This document shows, in pieces, positions 2,303 through 22,153 of a stretch of 22,418 bases of DNA (the stretch's first letter is position 1; every line of letters starts with the position of its first letter). Source of the DNA: an uncultured Dorea sp. (GTDB lineage: Bacteria > Bacillota > Clostridia > Lachnospirales > Lachnospiraceae); the NCBI GenBank assembly GCA_934307335.1, contig CAKRCL010000024.1:1-22418 (forward strand), read 5' to 3'. The notes under the pieces were generated by a model. The model did not search any database and was not told the DNA's origin. It saw only the letters and a program-made list of their open reading frames with translations. Position numbers and translations under genes: made by a program.

Positions 2303-2320
2303 AATAATCTCTCCATTTGC

Positions 2321-2353
2321 TTAACAGAAATTTTACACCATTTATTGTATAAT
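2321..2353 (+). promoter_or_regulatory. Activator-type promoter with OmpR-family direct repeat
   Basis: A perfect TATAAT lies at 2348-2353, but no -35 box is found 16-18 bases upstream. Instead TTAACA (2321-2326) and TTTACA (2332-2337) form a direct repeat with 11-base periodicity, the format bound by PhoB/PhoP-type dimers, at the position of the missing -35. The simplest reading is that the adjacent regulator, when phosphorylated, recruits polymerase to transcribe the redox operon. The repeat and spacing are seen; the binding is inferred. Confidence 0.45.
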
Positions 2354-2372
2354 ATGAAAGTCAACAGGTCAA
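2344..2372 (-). promoter_or_regulatory. Sigma-A promoter of the two-component operon
   Basis: On the minus strand TTGACC (plus positions 2367-2372) and TACAAT (2344-2349) are separated by 17 bases, each matching the consensus at five of six positions. The regulator start codon lies about 40 bases downstream. Its -10 overlaps the plus-strand -10 at 2348-2353, so the two transcription directions probably compete. Confidence 0.6.
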
Positions 2373-2411
2373 TAAAGACAATTATAACAAATGAAGGGAG
2401 AAATAAATATC

Positions 2412-2552
2412 TTGAAATGTAGGAACATATCACAGATTATCTTGCTGATCATCGGTGTGCTTATGATTAGTTATGGGGTGCTCAGAGGAGAAACAGCCGT
2501 TGTGCTTAGCAAAGCAATAAAATTATGTCTGGAGTGTGTAGGAATTGGATAA
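2412..2552 (+). CDS. Small CxxC membrane peptide, CD1871A-like
   Basis: This 46-residue product has one hydrophobic segment (about residues 7-19) and ends in CLECVGIG, with a CxxC pair near the C terminus. The order of hydrophobic helix, YGVxRGE, VLSKAI and CLEC matches what I recall of the CD1871A family of CxxC-containing clostridial small proteins. The chosen start is TTG at 2412, preceded by a GGGAG ribosome site about 11 bases upstream. An in-frame ATG at 2391 would give 53 residues but has no ribosome site. The stop overlaps the next gene by eight bases, so the two are coupled. A role as a small redox or electron-transfer partner of the 4Fe-4S and thioredoxin neighbours is inferred. Confidence 0.75.
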   Translation: MKCRNISQIILLIIGVLMISYGVLRGETAVVLSKAIKLCLECVGIG

Positions 2553-3441
2553 AAGAACGAATATCATATCAAAAAAAATAGCAAAGATGCGAGGCAAAAT
2601 ACAGGCAGCTGCTACATTACTTACCAATATCCATATTCCAAATCTGTTTAAAGGAAGAATATATCAGGGTAATGCCAAGACGGTATGTGTACCGGGATTG
2701 AATTGTTATTCCTGTCCTGCGGCAACAGGAGCCTGCCCGATTGGAGCTTTTCAGGCGGTAGTTGGTTCATCAAAATTTAAATTCACATATTATATAACCG
2801 GATTTTTTATTTTGCTTGGTGTGGTACTTGGAAGATTTATATGTGGCTTTCTCTGTCCGTTTGGGTGGTTTCAAGATTTACTGCACAAGATTCCTGGAAA
2901 AAAGCTGTCCACAGCGAAACTAAAACCGCTAAGATATTTGAAATATGTGATTCTTTTAGTTTTCGTTATATTACTTCCAATGCTTGTGACGAATTCAATT
3001 GGAATGGGAGATCCTTATTTCTGTAAATACATTTGTCCGCAGGGAGTTTTGGAAGGAGCAATACCGCTGTCGCTGGGGGATCCTGCAATCCGGTCTGCAC
3101 TTGGAAATCTGTTTACTTTTAAGAGTGTCGTTTTGATTATCGTGGTTGTTTTAAGCATTTTGTTTTACAGACCATTTTGCAAATGGATTTGCCCACTCGG
3201 TGCTATTTATTCTTTATTTAATAAAGTTTCTTTCCTCAGTATAAAAGTGGAAAGTGATAAATGTATCGGATGTAATCAGTGTGTGAAAGCTTGTAAAATG
3301 GATGTAAATGTCCTTGAGGCACCAAATCATCCAGAATGTATACGCTGTGGTGCATGCATGAAAGTATGTCCCAAAGATGCACTGCATTATCAATTTATGG
3401 GGAAATGTATGTGTAATAGCAAAGATCATACAAATAATTAA
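2545..3441 (+). CDS. Polytopic 4Fe-4S membrane protein (NapH/YccM-like)
   Basis: This 298-residue protein begins at a TTG with GGAG ten bases upstream. It has an unusual N-terminal Cys cluster (Cys48, 54, 57, 64) and membrane segments near residues 80-98, 132-150 and 192-209. Each segment is followed by a CxxxCP pair (Cys100/104, 160/164, 212/216). The C terminus carries two classical ferredoxin motifs, CxxCxxCxxxC at 240-250 and at 265-275. This is the layout of NapH/CcoG/YccM-type membrane electron-transfer proteins. It overlaps the preceding CxxC peptide and is followed by a thioredoxin lipoprotein, so it probably moves electrons across the membrane to an extracytoplasmic thiol system. The partner is inferred. 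Confidence 0.88.
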   Translation: MDKRTNIISKKIAKMRGKIQAAATLLTNIHIPNLFKGRIYQGNAKTVCVPGLNCYSCPAATGACPIGAFQAVVGSSKFKFTYYITGFFILLGVVLGRFICGFLCPFGWFQDLLHKIPGKKLSTAKLKPLRYLKYVILLVFVILLPMLVTNSIGMGDPYFCKYICPQGVLEGAIPLSLGDPAIRSALGNLFTFKSVVLIIVVVLSILFYRPFCKWICPLGAIYSLFNKVSFLSIKVESDKCIGCNQCVKACKMDVNVLEAPNHPECIRCGACMKVCPKDALHYQFMGKCMCNSKDHTNN

Positions 3442-3476
3442 AAAAAATAATATTAAAAGACAAGGAGATTTTTATT

Positions 3477-4388
3477 ATGAAAACAAGAAAAAACATGATT
3501 GCAATTCTTACACTTTGCGCTGCTTTATCTTTTACCGCATGTGCAGGAAAGGATAATTCTGAAAGTAAAGGTACGCAGAATACGACTTCTGCATCGGATA
3601 AAAAAACTTCAGATGAAGATTTGAATGCAAAGCTCGATGAGTTATATCAGCAGGAAAATCAGCTTTTTGCAGACCATAAAGATGCATGGGATAAAGCATT
3701 TCTTATGATGAGTAAAGGTTCTGCCGATCAAAGTGGCGAGTATGCAGACTTTCTTTCATCTACAATTGAATCAAACAAAGATTCCTTCACGGAAGATGAG
3801 CTTAAGACACTTAGAGAAGATATCGAAAAAATCCGTGAGATTGAAAAACAGATTACAGAAATTGAAAATAAGTTAGACAGTTCCAGCACTTCAGATACAG
3901 GAAGTTCTTCGGATGAGACAATACCTTTTAGTAATTTTGCGGCAAAAGATTTTGATGGAAATGATGTCGATGAAAGCCTTTTTTCTAAAAATGCTGTAAC
4001 AGTTGTGAATTTTTGGTTCACGGGATGTAAACCTTGTGTTGCAGAATTGTCAAAATTGAATGAATTAAATGATACATTAAAATCAATGGGTGGCGAAGTT
4101 GTAGGCATTAACACGGAGACTTTTGATGAAAATGAAGCTTCAATTAAAGAGGCAAAGGATATTCTTAAAAGCCAGGGCGCAAAATACCGTAGCCTCTCCG
4201 TAGCATCTGATTCAGCGGCAGGTAAGTATGCTTCTAGTATCCAGGCATTTCCTGCAACAATTCTTGTAGACAGAAATGGAAATATTGTAGGAGAACCAAT
4301 GTATGGCGGAATTGATGAGCAGAAAAATTATGATGCTCTTATGAAGCAGATTCAATCTGTAATAGATGCTGATAGTGCTAATAAATAA
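3477..4388 (+). CDS. TlpA-like thioredoxin-fold lipoprotein
   Basis: This 303-residue protein follows an AGGAG ribosome site. Residues 1-21 are a lipoprotein signal peptide, with lipidation predicted at Cys22 (FTAC, slightly off the consensus at -3). Residues 40-135 are charged and helical, rich in Glu and Lys, a likely coiled spacer. A Ser/Thr linker follows, then a thioredoxin fold from about 150. Its active site is CKPC (Cys184 and Cys187, in NFWFTGCKPC) and its cis-proline is Pro259 (AFPATILVD). TlpA/ResA proteins reduce disulfides outside the membrane, for example in cytochrome c maturation. No cytochrome genes are nearby, so its clients are unknown. It is the last gene of the redox operon. 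Confidence 0.9.
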   Translation: MKTRKNMIAILTLCAALSFTACAGKDNSESKGTQNTTSASDKKTSDEDLNAKLDELYQQENQLFADHKDAWDKAFLMMSKGSADQSGEYADFLSSTIESNKDSFTEDELKTLREDIEKIREIEKQITEIENKLDSSSTSDTGSSSDETIPFSNFAAKDFDGNDVDESLFSKNAVTVVNFWFTGCKPCVAELSKLNELNDTLKSMGGEVVGINTETFDENEASIKEAKDILKSQGAKYRSLSVASDSAAGKYASSIQAFPATILVDRNGNIVGEPMYGGIDEQKNYDALMKQIQSVIDADSANK

Positions 4389-4444
4389 TAAAAAACAGAT
4401 ATAGCTAAAAACAATAACTGGATATAAGAATAGTAAATATCTAT

Positions 4445-4473
4445 TTGCATTTATCAGGATTTTTCGTTATATT
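4445..4473 (+). promoter_or_regulatory. Probable promoter of the riboswitch transcript
   Basis: TTGCAT (4445-4450), a 17-base spacer and TATATT (4468-4473) place a transcription start near 4480, just before the first riboswitch stem at 4486. The -35 is weak (three of six) and the -10 good (five of six). Confidence 0.45.
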
Positions 4474-4485
4474 TATTTCAGAAGA

Positions 4486-4666
4486 CTATATAGTGATGAC
4501 TTGTCATTGAAAAGGGAATCTGGTGGAAATCCAGAGCAGCCTATTCTACTGTAAGATGGACGAAGCGAAAGAAAGGTCACTGGCAGATAAGTTTACGATA
4601 AAAAGTAACTAATGTTGGGAAGACGAAAGCGGAGGATGAAATCAAGTCAGGAAACCTGCTATATAG
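4486..4666 (+). ncRNA. Cobalamin riboswitch
   Basis: The segment contains hallmark cobalamin-aptamer blocks in order: GAAAAGGGAATCTGGTG, AAATCCAGAGCAGCC, a CTGTAA block, TGGGAAGAC, and the B12 box AGTCAGGAAACCTGC at 4645-4659. CTATATAG at 4486-4493 pairs with CTATATAG at 4659-4666 to close the outer P1 stem, which fixes the ends. An intrinsic terminator lies 13 bases downstream. By family knowledge such RNAs usually switch expression off when adenosyl- or methylcobalamin binds. The downstream genes are CobW-like and corrinoid-enzyme genes, consistent with cobalamin-linked control. Confidence 0.93.
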
Positions 4667-4679
4667 GTACAGACTTTTC

Positions 4680-4725
4680 GGTAGGGAAAAGAACGGATAC
4701 TTCGTTTATTTTCCCTACCTTTTTT
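4680..4725 (+). terminator. Riboswitch expression-platform terminator
   Basis: GGTAGGGAAAA (4680-4690) pairs perfectly with TTTTCCCTACC (4709-4719) and is followed by six T residues (4720-4725). It is a textbook intrinsic terminator placed immediately after the cobalamin aptamer, so it is the likely OFF structure. I did not identify a clear antiterminator by eye. Confidence 0.9.
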
Positions 4726-4749
4726 CGTGTATAAGATTTAGGGAAGATA

Positions 4750-4778
4750 TTGAGAAACTTATTGGCTGTATGTATAAT
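4750..4778 (+). promoter_or_regulatory. Near-consensus promoter after the riboswitch terminator
   Basis: TTGAGA (4750-4755, five of six) and TATAAT (4773-4778, perfect) are separated by exactly 17 bases, about 70 bases before the CobW-like start codon. It would give a transcript starting near 4785 that does not contain the riboswitch. Confidence 0.6.
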
Positions 4779-4791
4779 AAAGGGGATGATT

Positions 4792-4821
4792 ATGCACGAA
4801 TTTGATTCGAAAAAATTTTAA
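4792..4821 (+). other. Possible nine-codon upstream ORF
   Basis: An ATG at 4792 with an AAAGGGG ribosome-like site seven bases upstream opens a nine-residue frame (MHEFDSKKF) ending in TAA at 4819-4821. It could be a leader peptide or the stub of a lost gene. Transcripts from the promoter at 4750-4778 would start at about the ribosome site, so it would mainly be translated on read-through riboswitch transcripts. Support is weak. Confidence 0.25.
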
Positions 4822-4850
4822 ATAGTCTGATGGAGGCGTTAGGATAATAT

Positions 4851-6605
4851 ATGGTTGTTCAGATCATATCCGGATTTCGGGGATCCGGGAAGACAACATT
4901 TTTAAACCAGTGTATAGAACAGACAGAGGGGAAGATTGCGGTTATCCAGAATGATTTTGGAGCGCAATCAGTCGAACGAGATGAAATCAGCGAGCGATTG
5001 ACTTATGTGGAAATCAGTGAAGGCTGCATCTGTTGTGGTATGGCATTGGAATTTGAAGAAAAGATGCGTCGGATTGTGACAGAGGAATGTCCGGATCGGA
5101 TATTTATAGAGGCTTCTGGTTTTGGAAAACTATCAGATGTTGTAAAAGTGTGCCTGCAGTTAAAAGAGCAGGAGAATCTGGATATGAGAATTGGACCGAA
5201 TGTAACAGTTGTAGACATTCCGATGGTGGAGGCTTATGCATCAGGGCTTGGAGAGTTTTATACAGATCAGATCGCTTGTGCAGATGCGATTCTGATTAAC
5301 AATATAGATCCGGAGGATGTGACGCCGGAGGAAATCCAAGAGGGACAGAAGATGCTGGAAAAGCTGGCACCGAGTGCATTAAAAGAAGAAAATGCACAGA
5401 CAATCTTGCAATATATACTGAGTTTAGAAAGTGAGTGTAAAACGGAGCAAGAGCAGGATTTTAAAATCCAGTCTGATGAAAGATTTCTTATAGAAGAACA
5501 AGTACTGAAAAAGTATTTGGGAACAGAAGAGATGGTAGATATTCCGTCTGGTATTCGGGAAATTGGAGACAGCGCGTTTGAATATTGTATGGAAGTAAAG
5601 CTTGTGCATTTGCCGGAGACTCTGGAAAGAATTGGAAAACATGCCTTTCAGGGAAGTGGGATTCGAAGCATAGACCTTCCAGAGAAGTTAAAGGTAATAG
5701 AAGTCTATGCATTTAGTGGTACGCCATTGGAAGAAGTAAAGCTTCCGGAGCAGCTGGAAGAACTGGGACATAGTGCATTTCGATATTGTAGGATGTTGAA
5801 AAGAGTAAAGTTTCCGGAACATTTAGCGAAAATTCCACATGACATATTTAATGATTGTGGAAAGCTGCGAGAAGCAGAGCTGCCAAAGGATGTAGAAGTG
5901 ATTGGAGCACATGCATTTTCCGGGTGTGCAGCACTTGAACGGATAGAACTTCCGGAGGGAGTCCGGGAGATTGAGGAAGGGGCTTTTGTGACATGTGTGA
6001 GTCTGGAGCAGATTCATTTGCCAGAAAGCTTGAAAGCAGTAGCGCGTAAAGTATTCTACCGTTGTACGAATTTAAAAGAACTCCATTTTCCGGGTCAGGT
6101 GACAGAGTACGGGAAAGGGATTTTTTCACAGTGTTCTGCGTTGAAACGGGTGTATATTGAGGGATGTCCAGTGGATCAAGAGGTTTTTAAGGACTGGGAT
6201 ATGTGGACAACTTGTTACGATATGGAAGAAATCATAGCGCCCAATATGGAGATTACAAGATTTGCGAAAGAATGGAGAATGTGGGCAGCGGCAGGATTGG
6301 CAGATTACCTGGTCGAACATGGGAATGTGCGAAGTGAGATTCTGGATTCTTATATTGAAGATTTAAAAGAAAACCGTAGTGCATATGAGACACTTTTGCT
6401 TGAGAACAAAAAATTATTGCAATTCTTCATTCAGTATCGATTATTGAATGGACAGGCAGTAGGCAGACTTTTGAATCAATCCTTGGAAAAATCGGATATG
6501 GAGATTCGAGGTATGTTGTTGAATTATCAGAATGAAATTCAAGATGAGGATAAAAAGGAGGAGACGGGCAGTCAGCTAGACCAGCTTTTGGCAGCGCTGT
6601 CATAG
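4851..6605 (+). CDS. CobW-type GTPase fused to BspA-type leucine-rich repeats
   Basis: This 584-residue protein starts at an ATG with AGGA six bases upstream. Residues 1 to about 195 are a COG0523/CobW-like P-loop GTPase. The Walker A is GFRGSGKTT (8-16) and the metal-binding CxCC motif is Cys59-Ile-Cys61-Cys62. EASG follows at 88-91, and the guanine-specificity motif is altered to NNID (150-153). The usual CobW C-terminal domain is absent. Instead residues 225-440 form about nine BspA-type repeats of the LPxxLxxIGxxAFxxC kind, and a helical tail (470-560) follows. CobW-family proteins deliver metals such as cobalt or zinc to client proteins. The riboswitch upstream and corrinoid genes downstream point to cobalt or corrinoid handling. 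The repeats are probably a protein-docking surface; the client is unknown. Confidence 0.85.
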   Translation: MVVQIISGFRGSGKTTFLNQCIEQTEGKIAVIQNDFGAQSVERDEISERLTYVEISEGCICCGMALEFEEKMRRIVTEECPDRIFIEASGFGKLSDVVKVCLQLKEQENLDMRIGPNVTVVDIPMVEAYASGLGEFYTDQIACADAILINNIDPEDVTPEEIQEGQKMLEKLAPSALKEENAQTILQYILSLESECKTEQEQDFKIQSDERFLIEEQVLKKYLGTEEMVDIPSGIREIGDSAFEYCMEVKLVHLPETLERIGKHAFQGSGIRSIDLPEKLKVIEVYAFSGTPLEEVKLPEQLEELGHSAFRYCRMLKRVKFPEHLAKIPHDIFNDCGKLREAELPKDVEVIGAHAFSGCAALERIELPEGVREIEEGAFVTCVSLEQIHLPESLKAVARKVFYRCTNLKELHFPGQVTEYGKGIFSQCSALKRVYIEGCPVDQEVFKDWDMWTTCYDMEEIIAPNMEITRFAKEWRMWAAAGLADYLVEHGNVRSEILDSYIEDLKENRSAYETLLLENKKLLQFFIQYRLLNGQAVGRLLNQSLEKSDMEIRGMLLNYQNEIQDEDKKEETGSQLDQLLAALS

Positions 6606-6610
6606 GGGTT

Positions 6611-8122
6611 ATGAATATCAGGGAAGCAAAAGAACAGATTGAATATGCAGTGGGGTTATATCTGGAGAAGGATGAAAAAGGCAGATATGTGATTCCAATA
6701 GAAAAGCAACGCCCGGTATTTTTAATGGGTGCGCCCGGTATTGGAAAGACGGCAATTATGGAGCAGATTGCCCAGGAGCTTGGAGTTGCGCTTGTCTCTT
6801 ATACGATGACACATCATACAAGACAAAGTGCATTAGGACTTCCTTACATTGTGAATAAGCAATATGGGGGACAAAACTTTCAGGTATCGGAGTACACGAT
6901 GAGCGAGATTATTGCATCCGTGTATGAAGTGATGGAAGATACCGGAATTCAAGAAGGAATTTTATTTTTGGACGAGATTAATTGCGTATCTGAGACGCTC
7001 GCACCGGCAATGCTTCAATTTTTACAATACAAGACTTTCGGACAGCATAAAGTTCCGGAAGGCTGGGTGATTGTAACTGCTGGAAATCCACCGGAATATA
7101 ATCATTCTGTGAGAGAGTTTGACATTGCTTCCTGGGATCGTGTGAAGCGGATCAATGTTGAGCCGGATTATAGTGTTTGGAAAACATATGCATATGAGCA
7201 GGGAATACATCCGGCAATTCTGACTTATCTGGATTTGAAGAAAGATGCATTTTATTCGGTAGAGAACACGGTGGATGGAAAATATTTCGTGACGGCCAGA
7301 GGCTGGGAGGATTTGAGTCAGGTCATGTGCCTGAGTGAAAAGAAGAATTTTCCGGTAGATATGAATCTGATCAGTCAGTATGTGCAGGATGAGCAGATTG
7401 CCAGAGATTTTACAATTTATTATGATTTGTTCCGTAAGTATAAAAATGATTATCAGGTAGACCGTATTTTGTTCGGTATTCCGTCAGAAAATGTAAGACA
7501 GAGAGTCATGAAAGCATCTTTTGATGAACGAATCTCATTCCTTGGCCTTTTGATGGACGGGATTACAGATACAGTAAAAGAGGCAATAGAACAGCAAAAT
7601 GCGTTACTTGTATTTGGTGAGTGTCTGAAAAAGATAAAAGAAGAGACAGAAAAGGGACGTGACCTTATTTCATGTGTAGAAGTACAGACTACACGTCTGG
7701 CTGATAAGGAAAAGCAGAAGAAGCGTGCTGGAAATCTTTCTAGAAATCAGATACAGGAAGACGACAAGGTACTTGTCTATTTGGAAGCATGCCTTCAGAA
7801 GCTGGGCATTATGAGTCCAGATGAGAGAAACTTTGTCCTGCTTCGAGATTATTTTGCAGAGCTTACACAGAATTTTCAGGAACAGACAAGGAAGGCATCC
7901 GGTGCTCTTTCAAATGCATTTTATTTTTGTGAAGATGTCTTTGAGGAAGGGCAGGAGATTCTGATATTTGTAACAGCACTTACAGAGAATAAATATACAG
8001 CTAAGTTCATTGGACAGTATGGATGCCGGGAGTATTTTAAACACAATAAAAATCTAATGTTTTTCGAAAGGCAGCAGGATCTTATGGAGCAGATAAAAGC
8101 TCTTGGCCTTGATCAGGTATAA
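6611..8122 (+). CDS. MoxR-type AAA+ ATPase
   Basis: This 503-residue protein begins five bases after the CobW-LRR stop, so the two are in one operon. The AAA+ module shows Walker A GAPGIGKT (40-47), Walker B ILFLDEIN (117-124) and a sensor-1 Asn in TAGNPPEYN (about 157-164). The remaining 300 residues are helical without a motif I recognise. MoxR ATPases act with VWA-domain partners as chaperones that insert metals or cofactors or remodel complexes. The chelatase subunits CobS and BchI are relatives. The next gene is such a VWA partner, five bases downstream. A role in loading or remodelling corrinoid enzymes is inferred from the neighbours only. Confidence 0.9.
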   Translation: MNIREAKEQIEYAVGLYLEKDEKGRYVIPIEKQRPVFLMGAPGIGKTAIMEQIAQELGVALVSYTMTHHTRQSALGLPYIVNKQYGGQNFQVSEYTMSEIIASVYEVMEDTGIQEGILFLDEINCVSETLAPAMLQFLQYKTFGQHKVPEGWVIVTAGNPPEYNHSVREFDIASWDRVKRINVEPDYSVWKTYAYEQGIHPAILTYLDLKKDAFYSVENTVDGKYFVTARGWEDLSQVMCLSEKKNFPVDMNLISQYVQDEQIARDFTIYYDLFRKYKNDYQVDRILFGIPSENVRQRVMKASFDERISFLGLLMDGITDTVKEAIEQQNALLVFGECLKKIKEETEKGRDLISCVEVQTTRLADKEKQKKRAGNLSRNQIQEDDKVLVYLEACLQKLGIMSPDERNFVLLRDYFAELTQNFQEQTRKASGALSNAFYFCEDVFEEGQEILIFVTALTENKYTAKFIGQYGCREYFKHNKNLMFFERQQDLMEQIKALGLDQV

Positions 8123-8127
8123 AAGCT

Positions 8128-9501
8128 ATGGATGAGATTCGCAGAGAAAAAATCCAGATACTTGCGCAAGAAATTCTGAATTTCAGCAGACAGAGGATTT
8201 TGGTAAATATGCGTTTTTTGGAACCGGCATTGAACACATTTGAAGAGAAACCGGTGGAATATTTTGAGGAAGACAGGTGTGCTGACGATAAGATGTCAAC
8301 ATACGAAGAAAAGCCCGGTATGGGTACCGATGGCAGATTCCTTTATTATGATCCGATGTATGTATTGAAAGTATATCAGAAAGAAAAGGAAACTGTCAGT
8401 AGAGTATATCTGCATCTGATACTTCATGGTATATTTCGACATTTTTATGTCAGTCCGGTTGTGGAACATGACAGATGGGATCTCGCCTGTGATATGGCAG
8501 CAGAATACTTGATTGAAAGCTGGAAACTGGATTTTGCAAAATCTTCACGTGAACTGGAAGAAAAAAGAGAATTAGAACGTATTAGGAAGCTGACAGGCTT
8601 TATGAATGCGGAACGAATCTACAGATATCTGAAGGAACAGGATACATCAGAGATAAAGAGACTGGAAAAGATCTTTCGAATAGATGATCACAGTGGCTGG
8701 TATCCTAAAAAACAAAATATAAAAATGGTTCAAAGCTATGATATGAAAAACGGGCAGAATATTTGCTGTCAGGAACTAGAGGAAATGTGGAAGCAGATCT
8801 CGCAGAAGATTCAAGTAGATCTTGAGACTTTTATGAGGAGTCGAAGCAGTGAGGCAGGAGATTTCCTGATGAATCTGAAGTTGTCAAACCGAAAAAAGCA
8901 GGATTACAGTGCATTTCTTAGAAAATTTTCAAAACTGGGTGAATGCATGAAGATCAATGATGAAGAGTTTGATTATAATTTCTATACCTATGGTTTAAAA
9001 CTATATGGTAATATGCCATTGATTGAGCCATTGGAATATAAGGATATTCGCATTGTTAAGAACTTTGTGGTTGTGATTGATACTTCGGGATCAGTAGAAG
9101 AGGAACAACTTCGAAAATTTTTGGAAAAAACCTATCAAATTTTGAGCAGCCAGCAGGATAATCGAATTCGCGTGAATTTTCATTTGATTCAATGTGATGC
9201 AAAAGTACAACAAGATGTTGAAATCACAACTTTGGATGAACTGGAGCAATTTATGGATGAACTGGTGCTGTGGGGACGCGGCGGCACAGATTTCAGACCG
9301 GCATTTGAATATATAGAAGAACTTAGAAGAAAAGGCGGACTTTCGAATCTGAACGGAGTAATTTATTTTACAGATGGAATGGGTGTATATCCGGTAAAAA
9401 AACCAGATTATCCGGTGGCGTTTGTTTTTGACAGTGTGACTTTGGATGATATACCGAAAGTACCTGCATGGGCAATTCGATATCTGCTGGATGCAATATA
9501 G
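8128..9501 (+). CDS. VWA-domain protein, COG3864-like with degenerate metallopeptidase site
   Basis: This 457-residue protein is the VWA partner of the upstream MoxR ATPase. The N-terminal region resembles the DUF2201 predicted-metallopeptidase domain, including the following RWDLACDMAAEYLI stretch. The expected HExxH is HLILH (residues 96-100), so the catalytic Glu is lost although flanking His residues remain. The C-terminal VWA domain has the MIDAS motif DTSGS (Asp318, Ser320, Ser322), the GGTDFRPAF threonine loop and the YFTDG aspartate. The protein is therefore expected to bind a divalent cation and a partner protein but not to be a peptidase. It ends the first block of the operon; a 139-base spacer with a possible promoter follows. 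Confidence 0.88.
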   Translation: MDEIRREKIQILAQEILNFSRQRILVNMRFLEPALNTFEEKPVEYFEEDRCADDKMSTYEEKPGMGTDGRFLYYDPMYVLKVYQKEKETVSRVYLHLILHGIFRHFYVSPVVEHDRWDLACDMAAEYLIESWKLDFAKSSRELEEKRELERIRKLTGFMNAERIYRYLKEQDTSEIKRLEKIFRIDDHSGWYPKKQNIKMVQSYDMKNGQNICCQELEEMWKQISQKIQVDLETFMRSRSSEAGDFLMNLKLSNRKKQDYSAFLRKFSKLGECMKINDEEFDYNFYTYGLKLYGNMPLIEPLEYKDIRIVKNFVVVIDTSGSVEEEQLRKFLEKTYQILSSQQDNRIRVNFHLIQCDAKVQQDVEITTLDELEQFMDELVLWGRGGTDFRPAFEYIEELRRKGGLSNLNGVIYFTDGMGVYPVKKPDYPVAFVFDSVTLDDIPKVPAWAIRYLLDAI

Positions 9502-9541
9502 ACACTGTAAATGATAAATAAAATATATAGATGTAGCCAAT

Positions 9542-9570
9542 TTGAAGAAATAAGTAACTGATGTTAAAAT
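9542..9570 (+). promoter_or_regulatory. Possible internal promoter for the corrinoid block
   Basis: TTGAAG (9542-9547), a 17-base spacer and TAAAAT (9565-9570, five of six) lie in the 139-base AT-rich gap before the corrinoid protein gene. If used, the methyl-transfer genes can be expressed independently of the riboswitch. Confidence 0.4.
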
Positions 9571-9640
9571 GAATCAGTATAAAAAGGCTAGAAAATATAA
9601 AAATTAAATAGAAAATAATATGTCTAGGAGGAAATGGATT

Positions 9641-10291
9641 ATGGCAACGAAAGAGGAATTGTTAGCAAAATTATCAGAGTGTGTATTGGAGATGGAAGAT
9701 GAGGATGTTGTAGATGTAGCGGAGGAATATATCGAAGCAGGCTATCCGGCTCTTGATGGAATTATGGAGGGGCTTGTAGATGGTATGAACAAAGCCAGCG
9801 TTCTCTATGATGAAGAGGAATATTTTGTAACAGACCTTCTTCTTTGTTCCGATGCAATGTATGCAGGACTGGATGTCTTAAAACCACATTTGGAGAGCAA
9901 TGATAGTCAGGACAAGAAAAAAGCGGTAATTGGTGTTGTAGAAGGGGATACACATGATATCGGAAAGAATCTTGTGAAGATTATGTTAGAGACTGCTGGA
10001 TTTGAGATGTATGATCTTGGACGTGATGTTCCGCTTGATCAGTTTATTGAAAAGGCAAAAGAAGTTGATGCAGATTTGATCTGTATGTCTACACTTATGA
10101 CAACAACTATGGGCGGTATGCAGACTGTTATTGAGAAACTGAAAGAGCAGGGAATTCGTGATAAATTCAAAGTTATGGTTGGAGGAAGTCCGATTTCCAA
10201 AAAATTTGCAGATGATATCGGAGCTGAGGGATATTCTGTAAATGCAGTAGAAGCTGTGAAAGTTGCAAAAGAACTGACAGGAATTGCATAA
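9641..10291 (+). CDS. Corrinoid-binding methyl carrier protein (MtaC/MtbC-like)
   Basis: This 216-residue protein starts at ATG 9641, with AGGAGG (9626-9631) nine bases upstream; an earlier in-frame ATG at 9620 overlaps that site and is rejected. Residues 1-85 are the helical cap domain (B12-binding-2 type). Residues 93-216 are the Rossmann-like cobalamin domain with Asp103-x-His105-x-x-Gly108, where His105 is the lower axial cobalt ligand. The STL (after about residue 145) and VGGSP loops are also present. Such proteins carry a methyl group on cobalt between two methyltransferases. Two UroD-family genes and a RACo-like activator follow directly, which supports this role. The methyl donor cannot be read from the sequence. 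Confidence 0.95.
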   Translation: MATKEELLAKLSECVLEMEDEDVVDVAEEYIEAGYPALDGIMEGLVDGMNKASVLYDEEEYFVTDLLLCSDAMYAGLDVLKPHLESNDSQDKKKAVIGVVEGDTHDIGKNLVKIMLETAGFEMYDLGRDVPLDQFIEKAKEVDADLICMSTLMTTTMGGMQTVIEKLKEQGIRDKFKVMVGGSPISKKFADDIGAEGYSVNAVEAVKVAKELTGIA

Positions 10292-10302
10292 GTAAAATAA
10301 CG

Positions 10303-10321
10303 GCCCGGGATTTTACCGGGC
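10303..10321 (+). terminator. Hairpin between corrinoid and methyltransferase genes
   Basis: GCCCGG (10303-10308) and CCGGGC (10316-10321) form a perfect six-pair GC stem with a seven-base loop. Only TTAAT follows, so this is a weak terminator or an mRNA 3'-end stabiliser rather than a complete stop. It may let the corrinoid carrier be made in excess over the downstream enzymes. Confidence 0.5.
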
Positions 10322-10352
10322 TTAATCAGAATGTGGAAAGGAATAAGAATTC

Positions 10353-11387
10353 ATGGATGCAAAAGAGCGAATTATAAAAGCAATGCATCAAGAACCGACT
10401 GACAGACCTCCATGTATCTGTCCCGGCGGTATGATGAATATGATTACAACAGACTTGATGGATGAAGTGAATGTGAGCTGGCCGGAGGCGCATTTGAATG
10501 CAAGAATGATGGCAGATCTCGCAGAAGCGAATTATGAAAAAGGTTGTTTTGAAAATGTTGGAGTTCCATTTTGTATGACAATAGAGGCCGAAGCTATGGG
10601 TGCTCAGGTGACGATGGGAAGTAAAGTGTATGAGCCGCATGTTACAGGTTATGCTATAAATTCTGTGACAGAATGGAAGACAATCACGCCGATGAGTATG
10701 GAAGAAGGAAGAGCGAAGGTCGTACTGGATGCAATCCGCATATTGAAATCGAGAAATTTGGAAGTTCCGATCATTGGTAATATTACCGGACCGGTCAGCA
10801 CAGCAAGTTCTGTTATGGAGCCGGTTATTTTTTACAAGGAGCTTCGTAAAAAGAAAGAAGAAGCACATCAGTATATGCAGTTCGTGACAGATGAGATCAT
10901 CAAGTTCGCAAGAGCTCAGATTGATGCAGGTGCAGATATTATTGCAATTTCCGATCCAAGCGGAACAGGAGAAATCTTAGGACCGAAGCTTTTTGAGGAA
11001 TATACGGTAAAATACAATAATATGATCTGGGATGCTCTTCAGGAAGAGACAATGGGGAAAATCATGCATATTTGTGGACAGATGAAGAATGTATATCCGC
11101 AGGCTGAGCTGATCCATTCGGATGTATTGAGTTTTGATTCCTGTGTTGCAATGAAAGATGCAAGAGAGCACTTAAAGAATCATGCTTTAATGGGAAATGT
11201 CAGTACATGGACACTCGAGTTTGGACAGCCGGATAAGGTAGAACAGCTTGCTGTAAAGTGCTGGAAGGACGGTTCCAATATCATTTCCCCTGCGTGTGGA
11301 CTTGGAACAAAATCTCCACTTACGAATATTCAGGCAATCCGTCATGGAATTATGGAGGAAGCTAAAGGAGTAGAAGCAAATGTATAA
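10353..11387 (+). CDS. UroD-family corrinoid methyltransferase with zinc site
   Basis: This 344-residue protein has the uroporphyrinogen decarboxylase (MtaA/MtbA/CmuA-type) barrel fold signature. The zinc ligands of that methyltransferase branch are visible: His239-x-Cys241 (MHICGQ) and Cys315 (SPACGLG). In relatives, zinc activates a thiol or holds a methyl donor or acceptor near the cobalt. An AAAGGA ribosome site precedes the ATG, and the gene ends overlapping the activator gene by eight bases. It is either the substrate:corrinoid or the corrinoid:acceptor methyltransferase of the module. The family does not reveal the substrate, and no MtaB- or MttB-type gene is present in the window. True uroporphyrinogen decarboxylation is unlikely because of the zinc motif and context. 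Confidence 0.88.
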   Translation: MDAKERIIKAMHQEPTDRPPCICPGGMMNMITTDLMDEVNVSWPEAHLNARMMADLAEANYEKGCFENVGVPFCMTIEAEAMGAQVTMGSKVYEPHVTGYAINSVTEWKTITPMSMEEGRAKVVLDAIRILKSRNLEVPIIGNITGPVSTASSVMEPVIFYKELRKKKEEAHQYMQFVTDEIIKFARAQIDAGADIIAISDPSGTGEILGPKLFEEYTVKYNNMIWDALQEETMGKIMHICGQMKNVYPQAELIHSDVLSFDSCVAMKDAREHLKNHALMGNVSTWTLEFGQPDKVEQLAVKCWKDGSNIISPACGLGTKSPLTNIQAIRHGIMEEAKGVEANV

Positions 11388-13182
11388 GATACGTGTTGTG
11401 CAGTCGGATAAGGAATTTGAATATGAATCAGGAGCAAGCCTTCTGGAAATTTTGCTGGCGCAGAATATATTTATTGATAATCCGTGTAATGGAAAAGGTG
11501 TCTGCGGAAAATGTAAAGTACGAATTGTATCAGGTGATGTAGGTGAAGTTTCTCCGACAGAACTTAGATTTTTAAAACCAGAGGAAATAGAGAGTGGAGT
11601 ACGCCTTTCATGTTTGGTTCATCCAACGTGTAATCTTGAAGTAGAACTGATGCAGAAAGAGCGTAAACATGAAGTGTTATCCAAAGGTTATGTACCGAAG
11701 TTTGAAAAAGACCTGGATATTATCAAACAGACAGTGACTGTTCATAAGCCATTACTGACAGATCAGACTCCGTTTGAAGATCAGATAAAAAATCAGCTTT
11801 CAGATGTGGTATTTCCATTTTCTGTACTTCAGAGATTCAGTTTTAAAGAAGGCAATTATACAGCGGTTATTCATCGCCATGAGAACGGTAAAAAGGTTCT
11901 GATGGATCTGGAAGAGGGAGATACAACCAAAGCTATGTATGGTATTGCAATCGATATTGGAACTACGACGGTTGTTACCGCCTTGATTGACATGCTTACA
12001 GGAAAAGAGATGGCAAATTCCTCTATGATCAATGCACAGAAACATTTTGGACTGGATGTGCTGACCCGTATTACTTATGAGATGGAGCATCCGGAAGATG
12101 GAATTCAGGCACTTCAGGATGCAATTGTTGCATCTATCAATGAGATGATCGCCGACGTGTGCGGTCAGACAGGGGTGAAAAAAGAGCAGATTTATGAAGT
12201 GGCAATAGGAGCGAACTGTACAATGATGCATATGCTTCTTGGAGTGGATGCATTGTCTATCGGCAAATCTCCATATGCGCCTATGTTTGTAAAAGCAAAA
12301 GATATCGAGGCAGAAGAGATCGGTATTCATGCATCAAAAGGAGCAAGACTTTATTGTCTGCCTTCTGTATCGTCTTACATTGGAGCTGATATAGTAGCTG
12401 GTGCATATGTATGTGAACTTCACAAAGCGGATGAAAATGTTTTATTTATTGATATTGGAACTAACGGTGAGATTGTGTTCTCGGATCATGGTAGATTATT
12501 ATCCTGCTCTTGTGCAGCAGGTCCGGCACTGGAAGGTATGAATATCAGCTCTGGTATGCGTGCGGCAGAAGGGGCAATCGAAGATGTCGAGATTACCGAA
12601 GATGGCGTAAAATTGAAAATCATTGGAAATACGGAACCAATCGGTGTCTGCGGAAGTGGAATCCTGGCGGTCGTAAAAGAACTTGTCAGAAGTGGACTTG
12701 TCAGAAAAGATGGTGCATTTATCAAATTAAAGAAACTGGATGAGACGGATTATCGTTATCCGATGATTGAGATGGACGGGGTCAAACGTCAGTTTAAGAT
12801 GACGGAAGAACTGAAGATCACACAAGGAGATGTTCGTCAGGTTCAGCTTGCAAAAGGTGCGATTTTATCTGGATTTTATGCGCTTCTTAAAAAAGCAGGA
12901 AAAGAGATGAGTGAGCTTGATAAAGTCATGATTGCGGGACAGTTCGGAGCACATCTTCCAGCGGAAAGCTTGATCGGAACAGGAATACTTCCGGCAGAAG
13001 TCAAAGAAAAATTAGTCTATGTCGGAAATTCTTCCAAGACAGGAGCTTATATGGCGCTTTTATCTGGTCAGGCAAAGCGTGAGATGGAAGAACTTGCTCA
13101 TCATATGGATTACATGGAACTCGGGGCAACCGAAGGATATGAAAGATTATTTGCAGATTGTCTGATGTTCCCAGAGGTGTAG
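11380..13182 (+). CDS. RACo-like corrinoid activation protein (2Fe-2S plus ASKHA domain)
   Basis: This 600-residue protein overlaps the previous gene by eight bases, with AAGGAG upstream. An N-terminal plant-type 2Fe-2S ferredoxin domain has Cys36, Cys42, Cys45 and Cys78. After a linker, a large DUF4445/ASKHA ATPase region shows phosphate-binding loops AIDIGTTT (about 190-197) and DIGTNGE (about 357-363), and a glycine motif GVCGSG (422-427). Proteins of this build use ATP and a low-potential electron to reduce accidentally oxidised Co(II) back to Co(I), and are required for corrinoid methyltransferases in acetogens. Its place between the two UroD genes and after the corrinoid gene fits that role. 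Length and motifs are complete. Confidence 0.95.
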   Translation: MYKIRVVQSDKEFEYESGASLLEILLAQNIFIDNPCNGKGVCGKCKVRIVSGDVGEVSPTELRFLKPEEIESGVRLSCLVHPTCNLEVELMQKERKHEVLSKGYVPKFEKDLDIIKQTVTVHKPLLTDQTPFEDQIKNQLSDVVFPFSVLQRFSFKEGNYTAVIHRHENGKKVLMDLEEGDTTKAMYGIAIDIGTTTVVTALIDMLTGKEMANSSMINAQKHFGLDVLTRITYEMEHPEDGIQALQDAIVASINEMIADVCGQTGVKKEQIYEVAIGANCTMMHMLLGVDALSIGKSPYAPMFVKAKDIEAEEIGIHASKGARLYCLPSVSSYIGADIVAGAYVCELHKADENVLFIDIGTNGEIVFSDHGRLLSCSCAAGPALEGMNISSGMRAAEGAIEDVEITEDGVKLKIIGNTEPIGVCGSGILAVVKELVRSGLVRKDGAFIKLKKLDETDYRYPMIEMDGVKRQFKMTEELKITQGDVRQVQLAKGAILSGFYALLKKAGKEMSELDKVMIAGQFGAHLPAESLIGTGILPAEVKEKLVYVGNSSKTGAYMALLSGQAKREMEELAHHMDYMELGATEGYERLFADCLMFPEV

Positions 13183-13184
13183 AT

Positions 13185-14054
13185 ATGGGAGATATTAAAG
13201 ATTTTAAATGTACGTATGATAATTCAGCAGGAATTCGTTCAGAAATTACAGAAGGACTTGGACTTACATTTCCTGATGCATATATGCACTGTGACACAAT
13301 GGTTACGCTTGCAAAAGCGATGAGGCAGGCAGATGGGGCACTGATCTGTGAATTACCATTCTGTCATACAGTTGAAGCTGAAGCGATGGGCGGAATTGTT
13401 AATATGGGAAATGAAATCGCAGGTCCAAGAGCAGGCGGATATGTCTGCACAGACATTGAACAGATATTGGATCTTCCGGAGATTGATTTCTCAAAAGGCA
13501 GAATTCATGAAGTGCTTATGGCTTGTAAGAAACTTCGTGAACAAGGAGAACATGTTGTGTTCGAGGTTTCTGGTCCATTTACGATTTTAAATGTACTGAT
13601 CGATGCCAGATATGTGTTCAAAGGAATGCGTAAGAAACCAGAAGTTGTTGAAAAAGTATTTTGGAAGCTGGGTGATCAGATTTTGAAATACATGGAATTA
13701 GTGAAGGAATATGGTGGAGATCTTATCAGTTATGCAGATTCTTCAGGAGGATTAAATATTCTCGGGCCGAAGATGTTGGAAGATGTCACATTGAATTTCA
13801 CATATCCATTCTTGAAAAAAGCAGAAAAAATTGCAGATGAAAAGACAATGATACTGCTTTGTCCAAAGACAACACTTGCTCTTCTGGGAACAGGAAAAGC
13901 GAAATTCGTAGATCATAAGCTGGAAGAACCAGTGGGATATGCACAGGCCTGCATTGATATGGTCGGTAAAGTAAATATTGCCGGACAGATGTGTATTAAG
14001 AATGTGGGATATCAGTTAAATAATGGAATGTTCAAAGAAGTGAAATTACTTTAA
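13185..14054 (+). CDS. Second, divergent UroD-family protein
   Basis: This 289-residue protein starts at ATG 13185, two bases after the activator stop, with AGAGG upstream; a TTG at 13158 lies inside the preceding gene and is not favoured. It is a paralogue of the upstream methyltransferase: PFCHTVEAEAMGG corresponds to PFCMTIEAEAMGA. It is about 55 residues shorter, and the zinc motif His-x-Cys is changed to ILLC (Cys226), so the His ligand is missing. A Cys270 in GQMCIKN is present. The C terminus reads as a natural end, so it is probably a specialised family branch rather than a broken copy. It may be the second methyltransferase or a substrate-binding partner; this cannot be settled here. 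Confidence 0.8.
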   Translation: MGDIKDFKCTYDNSAGIRSEITEGLGLTFPDAYMHCDTMVTLAKAMRQADGALICELPFCHTVEAEAMGGIVNMGNEIAGPRAGGYVCTDIEQILDLPEIDFSKGRIHEVLMACKKLREQGEHVVFEVSGPFTILNVLIDARYVFKGMRKKPEVVEKVFWKLGDQILKYMELVKEYGGDLISYADSSGGLNILGPKMLEDVTLNFTYPFLKKAEKIADEKTMILLCPKTTLALLGTGKAKFVDHKLEEPVGYAQACIDMVGKVNIAGQMCIKNVGYQLNNGMFKEVKLL

Positions 14055-14154: not shown

Positions 14155-15852
14155 TTATGCGATAAAACGAAACTGCTGAGGATTTTTTTGCATTTCTTCC
14201 ATTATTGCAAGAATTTCTTGCTCAGTTGGAATATCAATCATTCCAACAGCAGTGAAATACACATCAACTTTTACATAACAGTGACCGCTTGATTTATCGT
14301 TATTGTGAACTTCAATTCGTTCAATAAGTGTGTTCACAAGCGTTGGCGTAAGTTCTTTAATTTCTGTAATTTCACGGAGAGTACGGAGTAATAATCTGAG
14401 GTCGGTAACTTTCTGACCGGCATCATCTAATGCCGCTTTCCATTCTTCTATTTCTGTCTGTAACCTCTTTTGCTCACACTCATAATTTTGAAGCAATTTG
14501 GAAAATCGTTCGTCCGAAAGTATTCCGGCAGCGTTTTGCTCAAACACTTTCTCAATCAGCTTGTCAATTTCCGATATTCTTTTTTCTCCTCGCTCAACTG
14601 ATAGTCTGAACTTTTTATTCTCCGTTTGACTTACAAGATTTGTTTTCTTGGCAAGCATATAGAGAAAAGCTGGTTCATAGCATCTCACAAAATCTGCTAA
14701 ACTTCTTATAGCTTCAAGCACAATCTGCTCCAAAACTACATCACGGATATAATGAATTTGGCAATTACCTCTGCCGTTTTTATAATTGGAACATCGCCAA
14801 AATTCTTGAGTTCTCTTAAGACTTTTCGCCGCACAAAAGTGTAATTTAGCTCCGCAATCAGGACAATAAACCAATCCTGAAAACAAACTCTGCCTACCCG
14901 TTGCAGTAGGACGGCGACGATGTTTGCGGAGTTCTTGAACTCTCAGCCATTCTTCCTCAGATATAATTGGCTCTTGCATATTCGGAATAATTTGATATTC
15001 TTCGATAGGATTATGAATTACCTTATGAACCTTGTAGCTGACAGTCGTGCTTTTGAAGTTTACCGCACAGCCGGTGTATTGTCTGTTTTCAAGAATATTT
15101 ACAACAGTTTTCTTGTCCCATTTACAAGAATCGCAAGGCACTTTCTGTGCGTGTTTTCTTCCGATACTTTCATAATATGCCGATGGAATAAGTATATTTT
15201 CCTTTTCTAACTGCGTTGCAATTTGTAGCGGTCCTCGACCTGCAAGACATAAAGAATAGATTTTGCGTACAATATTGGCAGCGGGTTCATCAATTATCCA
15301 TTGTTCTTTGTTATCTGGGCTTTTCATATATCCGAACGGAACTGTTGCAGAAACACGCTTACCATGCTCCGCTTTGGATTGCCATACAGCACGGATTTTC
15401 TTAGAGGTTTGTGCAGCATACCATTCATTAAAAATGTTATAAAACGGAAGCATTTCCATACCATTACCGGTTGTGCTGTTTACATTTTCCTGAATGGAAA
15501 TGAATGTAATGCCTAAGGAAGGATATACAATTTGTGTAAGTCTCCCGGCTTCAACCTGTTCTCTGCCGAAGCGGGAAAGGTCTTTTACAATAATCCTACA
15601 AATCTTACCTTCTTCAGCCATTCTTTGCATACGCTGGAAGTCACTTCGTTCAAAACTTGTACCAGAAATCCCGTCATCTACAAAGAACATTGTATTTTTG
15701 TAGCCGTACTTTTTACAATAATCAAGCAAAATTTGTTTCTGATTTCTTATACTGTTTGATTCATCACCGGATATCCTTTTATCTTTTTCGTATTCAACAG
15801 ATAATCTGCAATAAAGAGCAGTGATGAGCTCATCGTTTGTTTCTGTTGTCAT
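14155..15852 (-). CDS. Large serine recombinase (TnpX/TndX group)
   Basis: This 565-residue protein starts at plus position 15852, with AAGGAG nine to ten bases upstream; an upstream in-frame start at 15888 precedes that ribosome site and is rejected. The catalytic domain has Ser18 in ALYCRLS, then the DGISGTSFERSDFQRM and DLSRFGRE motifs of resolvase-type serine recombinases. A recombinase domain follows, then a zinc-ribbon (CPDCG with later Cys residues), a coiled-coil stretch and a C-terminal DUF4368-like segment. This matches the TndX/TnpX group, which excise and integrate clostridial transposons through circular intermediates without phosphorylated tyrosine chemistry. The adjacent TnpW gene supports the assignment. 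It is the last gene of the leftward element operon. Confidence 0.93.
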   Translation of the reverse strand: MTTETNDELITALYCRLSVEYEKDKRISGDESNSIRNQKQILLDYCKKYGYKNTMFFVDDGISGTSFERSDFQRMQRMAEEGKICRIIVKDLSRFGREQVEAGRLTQIVYPSLGITFISIQENVNSTTGNGMEMLPFYNIFNEWYAAQTSKKIRAVWQSKAEHGKRVSATVPFGYMKSPDNKEQWIIDEPAANIVRKIYSLCLAGRGPLQIATQLEKENILIPSAYYESIGRKHAQKVPCDSCKWDKKTVVNILENRQYTGCAVNFKSTTVSYKVHKVIHNPIEEYQIIPNMQEPIISEEEWLRVQELRKHRRRPTATGRQSLFSGLVYCPDCGAKLHFCAAKSLKRTQEFWRCSNYKNGRGNCQIHYIRDVVLEQIVLEAIRSLADFVRCYEPAFLYMLAKKTNLVSQTENKKFRLSVERGEKRISEIDKLIEKVFEQNAAGILSDERFSKLLQNYECEQKRLQTEIEEWKAALDDAGQKVTDLRLLLRTLREITEIKELTPTLVNTLIERIEVHNNDKSSGHCYVKVDVYFTAVGMIDIPTEQEILAIMEEMQKNPQQFRFIA

Positions 15853-15938
15853 AATTTTACGCTCCTTTCCGACAACAGGGCATAACAAAGATATATTTAT
15901 ATTATTACGCCCTGTGTCTTTTGGCTATTGTATGAATA

Positions 15939-16112
15939 TCAAATTGGCTTTTCAGGCAATATCAGTTTCTGAAATTGCTGAAGCACATTTTCTCTGCCAT
16001 TGGGATTAAAATGTGTGCTGACTTCGTAAGTTGTGTTGCCTATTTTCATAAAGAACGGTTCATCATTCTTTTCAAAATACGGTGCATATATTGAATTGTT
16101 TTTTTCTGTCAT
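15939..16112 (-). CDS. tnpW: TnpW-family small transposon protein
   Basis: A 57-residue frame too short for many ORF cut-offs, with start ATG at plus 16112 and TGA at 15939-15941. The start overlaps the ParB-like gene's stop in an ATGA arrangement, so it is translationally coupled. Its core, KIGNTTYEVSTHFNPNGRENV, matches by memory the conserved core of the TnpW family that accompanies TnpX recombinases in Tn4451-like elements; that stretch begins near residue 23. The function of TnpW is not established. The 86-base gap to the recombinase gene holds only its ribosome site. Confidence 0.8.
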   Translation of the reverse strand: MTEKNNSIYAPYFEKNDEPFFMKIGNTTYEVSTHFNPNGRENVLQQFQKLILPEKPI

Positions 16113-16930
16113 CGTTCATCCCTCATGTTTCTTTCTCTTTGCTTCTTCCATTTTTCGAGCAGAGATATTATTGTTTTCTGCATATCGGATTTGGTGTAGT
16201 TTTTCGGAAAATATTTGCGTATATCTTCTTCTATAAAACGAACCTGTTCTTTTTGATTGGGCTTTTCTTCGCACAAAACTGCAAACACAACATCGGTTGA
16301 ATATTTGCCTTGTTCACTGAATTTTCTTAATCGCTGTGCCTGTGATAATGACGGCGTAGCGTCTGTAAATTCGATTTGGTCAAGCAATGTTCTTTGCTCA
16401 TATTCCGACAGATATGAAATCTCAACCGCAGGAGTAAAGGCTATCCGTTCCTCGTCTACAAGTTTTAAGAGCTCAAATATCAAGTATGTCAGACGGATAT
16501 ATCGTTGAACATTTCTGCCGCTTTCGGTGTCGGATATGTTATCTCTTGACTTGTGGACAACTTGTCCATAAGTTTTGCCTTGATGCTTTAAGGCTTCTAA
16601 TTTCATTTTGTATGCGAAGGCTTTTTCGCTTGGCAAGATATGTTCACGGTGTATGTTTGAATCCACCATTTGCACAATCGCCTCATCTTTTGTAAGTTCT
16701 TTTATTGTCACGGGTATGCTTGTTATCCCTAACGCTTTGCAAGCTTTAACTCGTCTGTGTCCGCTGATAATTTCATATTTACCTGCCGGAAAAGGACGAA
16801 CAATTATCGGTTCAAGCAATCCGTTTTCTTTTATGCTCTCTGTAAATTCTTGTTGCTCAATTCCGCTTCTTTCCTTAAACGGATGATTTTCAAAAGGAAT
16901 GAGCAACTCTATATCTATTATCTGTATCAT
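16109..16930 (-). CDS. ParB/Spo0J-like nuclease-domain protein
   Basis: This 273-residue protein has an N-terminal ParB domain with the diagnostic GHRRVKA motif (a variant of GERRxxA) near residues 57-63, followed by DSNIHREHILPSEKAFAYKM typical of the domain's second half. A helix-turn-helix region and a charged helical C terminus follow. AGGAGA precedes the ATG by about eight bases. In mobile elements such proteins accompany a replication initiator and assist maintenance of the circular form, though no ParA partner is present here. It is followed by TnpW through a four-base overlap. The assignment to family is firm; a partition role is inferred. Confidence 0.88.
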   Translation of the reverse strand: MIQIIDIELLIPFENHPFKERSGIEQQEFTESIKENGLLEPIIVRPFPAGKYEIISGHRRVKACKALGITSIPVTIKELTKDEAIVQMVDSNIHREHILPSEKAFAYKMKLEALKHQGKTYGQVVHKSRDNISDTESGRNVQRYIRLTYLIFELLKLVDEERIAFTPAVEISYLSEYEQRTLLDQIEFTDATPSLSQAQRLRKFSEQGKYSTDVVFAVLCEEKPNQKEQVRFIEEDIRKYFPKNYTKSDMQKTIISLLEKWKKQRERNMRDER

Positions 16931-17026
16931 TTAGTTATCTCCTATATGTTTTTCTTTTCGGCAGGTATTGTCTTACTCTATAAGTCTTAATACCTTCTGT
17001 TATTCGGAAATCAAGAAAGGCGAAAA

Positions 17027-17633: not shown

Positions 17634-17665
17634 TGTAAAAAACTCCTTTCACTCATTTGGACAAA

Positions 17666-17685
17666 GGGTGCCAAAATGCACACCC
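17666..17685. repeat. Short inverted repeat upstream of the replication operon
   Basis: GGGTG (17666-17670) and CACCC (17681-17685) flank a ten-base centre, 33 bases before the Cys-rich gene start. It could be an operator or an initiator-binding site for the element. Position and symmetry are all that supports it. Confidence 0.35.
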
Positions 17686-17701
17686 AAATCGAATAACTGA
17701 G

Positions 17702-20723: not shown

Positions 20724-22153
<1,430 letters not shown>

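Follow-up and report, generated by a model that had tools for sequence, protein, structure and literature searches.

A CobW-LRR fusion may tie a clostridial LRR-VWA-MoxR triad to a corrinoid methyltransferase operon in an uncultured Dorea sp.

The stretch of DNA analyzed here, hereafter the window, comprises the 22,418 nucleotides of contig CAKRCL010000024.1 (assembly GCA_934307335.1) from an uncultured Dorea sp. Seven genes on the plus strand (positions 4851-14054) lie downstream of a cobalamin riboswitch, in the order CobW-LRR, MoxR, VWA, corrinoid protein, MtaA-like UroD1, RACo and UroD2, where CobW-LRR denotes a COG0523 GTPase carrying leucine-rich repeats (LRR). Gaps of 5 bp separate CobW-LRR from MoxR and MoxR from VWA, 118 bp lie between VWA and the corrinoid protein gene, and the start of the RACo gene overlaps the end of UroD1; we infer that all seven genes share one transcript. 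Scans for open reading frames (ORFs), domains and Rfam families confirmed, with small coordinate differences, the seven co-directional genes behind a cobalamin riboswitch that an initial annotation of this DNA had described. Judged from the comparisons below, the first three genes look to us like an LRR-VWA-MoxR triad of clostridial type, its LRR subunit apparently fused to a CobW protein of the corrinoid type.

The CobW-LRR protein (4851-6605, +) joins a GTPase domain (PF02492, 5.5e-33) to LRR_5 repeats (PF13306, 1.3e-55). It keeps the P-loop GFRGSGKT and the CxCC motif (CICC), and a G3E GTPase with CxCC adjoins corrinoid methyltransferase genes in the window. The predicted structure (mean predicted local distance difference test score, pLDDT, 80.4) consists of a G domain (residues 1-193), a low-confidence linker (194-209) whose length varies among relatives, the LRR domain (212-436) and a helical tail (473-583). 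No CobW_C domain was found in the protein by Pfam scan; the LRR stands where CobW_C is absent, and CobW_C was present in both corrinoid CobW proteins scanned. Assignment as a true CobW of cobalamin biosynthesis was rejected at 65.5 bits for TIGR02475 against a cut-off of 332; the protein has no run of four histidines, and no cobN was seen among the window ORFs scanned.

The second and third genes form, by sequence, a MoxR-VWA remodelling pair, since a MoxR lies beside a VWA protein with a metal ion-dependent adhesion site (MIDAS) and both motif sets are intact. The MoxR-type AAA+ ATPase (6611-8122, +; PF07728, 8e-9) keeps Walker A (GAPGIGKT) and Walker B (FLDE), and a PDB sequence search with it returned only midasin (2.1e-6). 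In the VWA co-chaperone (DUF2201; 8128-9501, +; PF09967 3.6e-14, PF13203 5.5e-5; model pLDDT 77.3) the MIDAS residues D318, S320, S322, T387 and D416 are invariant in 26 sequences, as are H96, H100, H105 and E126 of its N-terminal domain. Pfam calls the latter domain a putative metallopeptidase. Because these His and Glu residues are invariant while the Glu of HExxH is absent in 21 of 22 VWA rows, the domain may instead hold a metal-binding, non-peptidase site. The best 50 Foldseek rows for the VWA model were nearly all VWA or integrin I-domain folds, none placing the N-terminal domain, and the PDB sequence search gave no convincing match for this protein.

The methyltransferase corrinoid protein (9620-10291, +; PF02310/PF02607) reached 205 bits with TIGR02370, below the cut-off of 215, and UroD1 (10353-11387, +), a zinc-type corrinoid methyltransferase resembling MtaA and Mlp proteins, reached 417 bits with PRK06252 against a cut-off of 244. 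The three ligand positions of the UroD1 pattern His-x-Cys...Cys align with those of the methylcobalamin:coenzyme M methyltransferase in PDB 4ay7. In that structure we take the three aligned positions to bind zinc. Such binding agrees with PMC10418091. The next gene encodes a corrinoid reductive activase of the RACo/RACE type (AcsV-like; 11380-13182, +; PF14574, PF17651, PF00111), and the last encodes UroD2 (13185-14054, +; PF01208, 5.3e-19), a short divergent UroD paralogue for which a TTG at 13158 is an alternative upstream start. UroD2 does not have the zinc-type His: an HxC motif in the second half was found neither in the window protein nor in its relatives at 20 loci. A GQxC motif lies near the C-terminus in 18 of these 20 relatives.

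One further genome, G193, which belongs to the family of a Candidatus Mediterraneibacter genome and is taken as Lachnospiraceae, carries the same seven genes in identical order. Protein identity to the window ranges from 67% (VWA) to 96% (UroD1), with MoxR at 86%. Synonymous divergence (dS) is 1.16-1.79 for six genes and saturated for VWA, and nonsynonymous divergence (dN) is 0.03-0.23; because dS exceeds 1 while dN stays low, the operon looks old and under purifying selection. G193 has an extra gene, UroD3 (364 aa; His-Cys-Cys by motif), between riboswitch and CobW-LRR, of which the window retains a ten-codon remnant (4792-4821, +) whose start aligns with the G193 gene. The corrinoid module had been called complete in the initial annotation, which is too strong a word for a module that has lost UroD3, has a UroD2 devoid of the zinc-type His and has no tetrahydrofolate (H4folate) methyltransferase among the window ORFs scanned.

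The sequence data also bear on how MoxR and VWA occur elsewhere. Relatives of the VWA protein were found in 136 of 250 family genomes among the matches listed. At E<=0.001, and again among the matches listed, MoxR had hits in 176 of 392 genomes at order level and in 73 of 391 at class level; the weaker of these hits probably represent different AAA+ proteins. The closest listed MoxR is that of G193, followed by one at 59%, and G193 is the only one close to the window. An LRR protein adjoins VWA and MoxR in all 16 further loci drawn from the top MoxR matches (15 genomes), and the displayed neighborhoods, of up to four genes in either direction, contained no corrinoid-type match. The same adjacency holds in 19 of 20 loci of another set from which G193 was left out (18 by BLASTP, L038 by eye), the exception, L053, having an LRR candidate on the opposite strand. 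These counts suggest that LRR-VWA-MoxR is a widespread clostridial triad. Across loci L036-L054 and L187-L202 the LRR protein measures about 275-955 aa, VWA is of the DUF2201 type, gene order varies and the neighbors are varied. At one stand-alone triad (L001) genes resembling larE, larB and larC of the nickel-pincer cofactor were seen by eye about 3-4 kb downstream (15634-18694).

Corrinoid genes were found near just one of 20 longer VWA loci, that of G193. For the corrinoid module, UroD1 relatives of at least 57% identity occur in 19 of 397 family genomes among the matches listed (the match in G248 is in two pieces), and an order-level search of 392 genomes, overlapping the family set, adds two (66% and 54%), giving 21 genomes with G193 included. 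Neighborhoods were read over roughly 10-20 kb, and several corrinoid loci end at short contigs, where farther neighbors could be missed. Within this range a window-type MoxR or VWA lies near the module in one of the 21 genomes (G193), and a CobW gene adjoins the module in 10, G193 again included. We therefore reject the idea of the initial annotation that the trio is one dedicated corrinoid system, since LRR with MoxR-VWA is widespread and mostly away from corrinoid genes. Its broader claim, a functional coupling of the trio to the corrinoid operon, is nonetheless supported by the gene order kept over divergence, by the CobW phylogeny and by the fusion. In G248 (L104, 11058-15866) a different MoxR, followed by DUF58- and transglutaminase-like genes recognized by eye, starts at the end of the RACo gene, and at L094 (14925-17202) two double-cubane-cluster-type proteins, one exceeding the family cut-off, lie near a CobW/UroD/corrinoid cluster.

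The distribution alone would agree with chance adjacency, or hitch-hiking of a triad beside a corrinoid cluster, and so would mobile-looking neighbors (a serine recombinase, ParB and RepA_N in the window, a transposase-like gene seen by eye in G193). The initial annotation had taken separate occurrence as the mark of chance; trio and module do mostly occur apart, but the CobW-LRR fusion and the G193 operon speak against chance itself, and for these two reasons we do not regard the linkage as accidental. Given also an order that is identical across near-saturated synonymous divergence with low dN, and a CobW half that groups with corrinoid-operon CobWs, we consider this explanation largely refuted and very improbable.

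The grouping just mentioned comes from a GTPase-domain tree of 45 COG0523-type rows, into which 33 of 36 other CobW-type regions entered (L139, L169 and L170 failed the motif filter). Window and G193 fall inside a clade of 11 rows, supported at 99/95, to which only corrinoid operons contribute, with 33 other rows outside. The label "corrinoid", borne by 12 rows, requires one change on the tree, whereas shuffled labels require 10.7 on average; a grouping of all 12 such rows is less well supported (89/46). Since the tree places window and G193 with corrinoid-operon CobWs, we conclude, as far as sequences can tell, that the CobW part of the fusion belongs to the corrinoid module; the grouping covers the corrinoid-operon CobWs of the sampled genomes.

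The other half of the fusion points to the triad. A profile built from the C-terminal tails of 34 triad LRR proteins (L035 and L053 left out; L193, L194 and L198 not added) matches CobW-LRR with E 1.4e-6 and 21.1 bits. Moreover, an LRR protein of 375 aa without CobW, P0146, has 53% identity to the LRR part of CobW-LRR, and a MoxR, P0245, has 71% identity to that of the window. The two presumably share a contig, because the longest contig is equal for both (4133), and together they look like an unfused relative of the window trio. By equal longest-contig sizes, P0136 and P0243 would likewise share one contig, of 26,317 bp, a candidate for a further CobW-LRR/MoxR/VWA locus. At least 20 protein clusters among the matches listed carry both a CobW and an LRR domain. 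In P0143 and P0145 the LRR part of CobW-LRR stands on unrelated N-termini; these are probably chimeras of metagenome assembly.

It could be hypothesized that LRR-VWA-MoxR retains a general task of its own, such as quality control, stress or conflict, and that the fusion merely adds B12 control or a scaffold with no part in corrinoid-enzyme maturation. The triad does stand beside varied, unrelated-looking genes, and Kaur 2020 (PMC7159879) interprets MoxR-vWA ternary systems as serving in conflict. However, fusion to a corrinoid CobW and an operon order kept in two diverged lineages speak against such independence, and a reading as anti-phage defence was rejected on PADLOC matches that were weak, at most 21 bits. 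We regard a wholly separate task as quite unlikely.

Our favored explanation, which we hold to be somewhat more probable than its denial, is that an operon resembling type 1 mlp clusters had its CobW joined to the LRR subunit of a triad that already existed, giving a client-specialized activation or metallation machine. The MoxR and VWA genes would have come along with the triad's LRR subunit. The LRR part and the C-terminal tail would hold CobW onto VWA-MoxR, VWA would grip a client from the operon, most likely a UroD methyltransferase and possibly the corrinoid protein, MoxR would open that client using ATP, and CobW, on hydrolyzing GTP, would release a metal, most probably zinc destined for the His-Cys-Cys site. 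We infer complex formation, the client and the metal delivered. As a broader and doubtful extension, the triad might be a general clostridial machine for metallocenter insertion in which the LRR protein picks the client and whose natural partner, a GTP-driven metallochaperone, is here physically joined to it. If this view of the triad were true, metal delivery by a GTPase and opening of the client by an AAA+ protein would be combined in one machine.

Several results weigh against the favored explanation. The full operon was found only in the window and G193. Long branches drew a warning from the tree program, and one of them is the stem shared by window and G193 (1.62). Where this pair belongs within the clade is therefore uncertain, and its placement beside L090, a locus with a CobW of just 227 aa, may be spurious. 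The CobW of another corrinoid locus, L085, is short as well (202 aa), and CobW_C may have been lost before the fusion. Four of 93 control LRR proteins, a non-random set of the best-scoring among the matches listed, also match the tail profile at E<1e-5 (21.8-28.4 bits), all above the 21.1 bits of the window. MoxR-VWA was near none of 24 other corrinoid loci (20 genomes plus L102, L103, L166 and L175), and since these modules lie apart from such pairs the triad is not essential for this chemistry in general. Genome co-occurrence of VWA and module was 10/13 as against 126/237, which is not significant (Fisher p 0.15) and assumes that the 250 genomes of the VWA search lie inside the 397 of the UroD1 search. 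Finally, with regard to the cargo, the cobalamin riboswitch upstream would favor cobamide over zinc.

The initial annotation proposed that the trio acts on the cobamide carried by the corrinoid protein, by loading, exchanging or repairing it; CobW-LRR would then act in the manner of MeaB, and MoxR-VWA would pry out damaged cofactor. Besides the riboswitch, which recurs at other corrinoid-module loci (see below) and at L166, the relationship of MeaB, a cobalamin-handling protein, to G3E GTPases (PMC7895991, PMC2770081) is in its favor. However, the usual reactivator, RACo, is already present, MoxR-VWA does not occur in the vicinity of the 24 other corrinoid loci, CxCC is described as the likely metal site of CobW (PMC7895991), and COG0523 subfamily 13 has been noted beside zinc-dependent UroD-type enzymes (PMC2770081). 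We judge the cobamide role unlikely. Delivery of zinc to the UroD enzymes fits at least as well as cobamide loading. The CxCC motif, enzymes of the zinc type and a RACo already in the operon make zinc for UroD1 our first choice of cargo, with cobamide for the corrinoid protein second.

The riboswitch itself (4474-4677, +) was identified by Rfam cmscan as a cobalamin aptamer, RF00174, with 86 bits (E 2.9e-20) against a gathering score of 31.5. It is abutted by an intrinsic terminator (4680-4725, +), a 40-nt hairpin of -21.1 kcal/mol followed by TTTTTT, which is kept in G193 and was missed by a stricter pattern scan of the region; the terminator probably acts as an expression platform of the OFF type. 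Terminators abut the aptamer in eight of ten riboswitches examined, which would be the usual OFF arrangement. Between terminator and CobW-LRR lies a promoter-like TTGAGA-17-TATAAT (4750-4778, +; 11/12 consensus), the scanned region holding 31 promoter-like sites compared with 26.6 in shuffles. The leaders of window and G193 can be aligned across the riboswitch, the terminator, the TTGAGA/TATAAT site and the opening codons of UroD3; beyond these codons the window has no UroD3. Because the promoter-like site sits downstream of the terminator and is kept in G193, riboswitch control of all seven genes is uncertain. Cobalamin riboswitches occur at seven of the 21 corrinoid-module loci, that of G193 included; G319 adds an eighth at its second locus, and the RNA scan showed none at six triad loci (L036-L041).

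The G193 locus (L035, 3699-20000) contains three cobalamin riboswitches in 20 kb, one preceding a 981-aa secreted-looking protein and one a DUF1638 gene; the transposase-like gene lies at 4039-5028. Mutant fitness data from a different bacterium place DUF1638 with B12 reactivation, and no specific role was assigned there (PMC5764234). In the window, the region 5' of the riboswitch (474-4388) encodes a two-component system, a NapH-like ferredoxin membrane protein and a TlpA/ResA-like thioredoxin-type protein, and an element-like block directly 3' of the operon (14155-22154) holds a large serine recombinase, ParB_N, RepA_N and HsdR- and HsdM-like genes of type I restriction.

Among known systems, the corrinoid part resembles the type 1 mlp clusters described by Kountz and Balskus (2023, PMC10418091), with which it shares a corrinoid protein, a bacterial Ram/RACE activase, the lack of a visible H4folate methyltransferase, His-Cys-Cys in UroD1 and, probably, several SCMT-like UroDs. 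The double-cubane genes at L094 likewise recall those noted in many type 1 clusters, and the account given there allows exceptions to His-Cys-Cys in several Mlps1. Unlike those clusters, the window operon has no UroD3 and contains the trio, and the terms CobW, COG0523, MoxR and riboswitch do not appear in the main text of that paper. From the likeness to type 1 mlp clusters the pathway is probably one of methyl-sulfur or methyl-selenium demethylation or metabolism. The initial annotation knew of no described case of such a trio acting on corrinoid methyltransferases. For the CobW part, the link to these enzymes was already described: COG0523 subfamily 13 was reported beside zinc-dependent mtaA/mtaB (Haas 2009, PMC2770081), and the window shares with it a CxCC-bearing GTPase next to corrinoid methyltransferase genes. 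It differs in its LRR and tail, in having no CobW_C, and in the MoxR and VWA that follow. The role of COG0523 beside corrinoid methyltransferases, a link dating from 2009, is not established in the account of PMC2770081. What stands of the novelty claim concerns the fusion and the triad, neither of which was found described in the titles and abstract openings of the open-access papers that the searches listed. The fusion strongly hints that COG0523 and the triad are physical partners, and it opens the function of both to testing.

The cobalt chelatase CobN-CobS-CobT has AAA+ and VWA subunits, and the window shares with it these subunits and the cobalt/corrin theme. A chelatase of this type was nevertheless rejected, with no CobN among the ORFs scanned and CobS and CobT models matching neither MoxR nor VWA. 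In CbbQ-CbbO, a MoxR AAA+ protein and its VWA partner act on a blocked enzyme. MoxR-vWA ternary conflict systems, as described in PMC7159879, share with the window a MoxR, a VWA and a third component, which in those systems is VMAP, iSTAND, FtsH or a beta-propeller and here an LRR_5 protein. No effector genes were noticed among the triad-locus neighbors shown, and with the bpMoxR profile the window MoxR scored 21.6 bits, below the cut-off of 27, and the triad MoxR of L045 28.9. NorQ-NorD, a MoxR-VWA pair reported to drive metal insertion (PMC13036017), has in common with the window a MoxR AAA+ protein, a VWA partner and a metalloenzyme client (PMC13036017, PMC9976466). Unlike NorQ-NorD and CbbQ-CbbO as described, the window has an LRR subunit and a GTPase fusion. 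Corrinoid clusters of this kind, the CobW that goes with them and MoxR-VWA machines were all known before; what is new is their joining by way of the fusion. If the model holds, this would to our knowledge be the first known metallochaperone GTPase built into an AAA+/VWA insertion machine.

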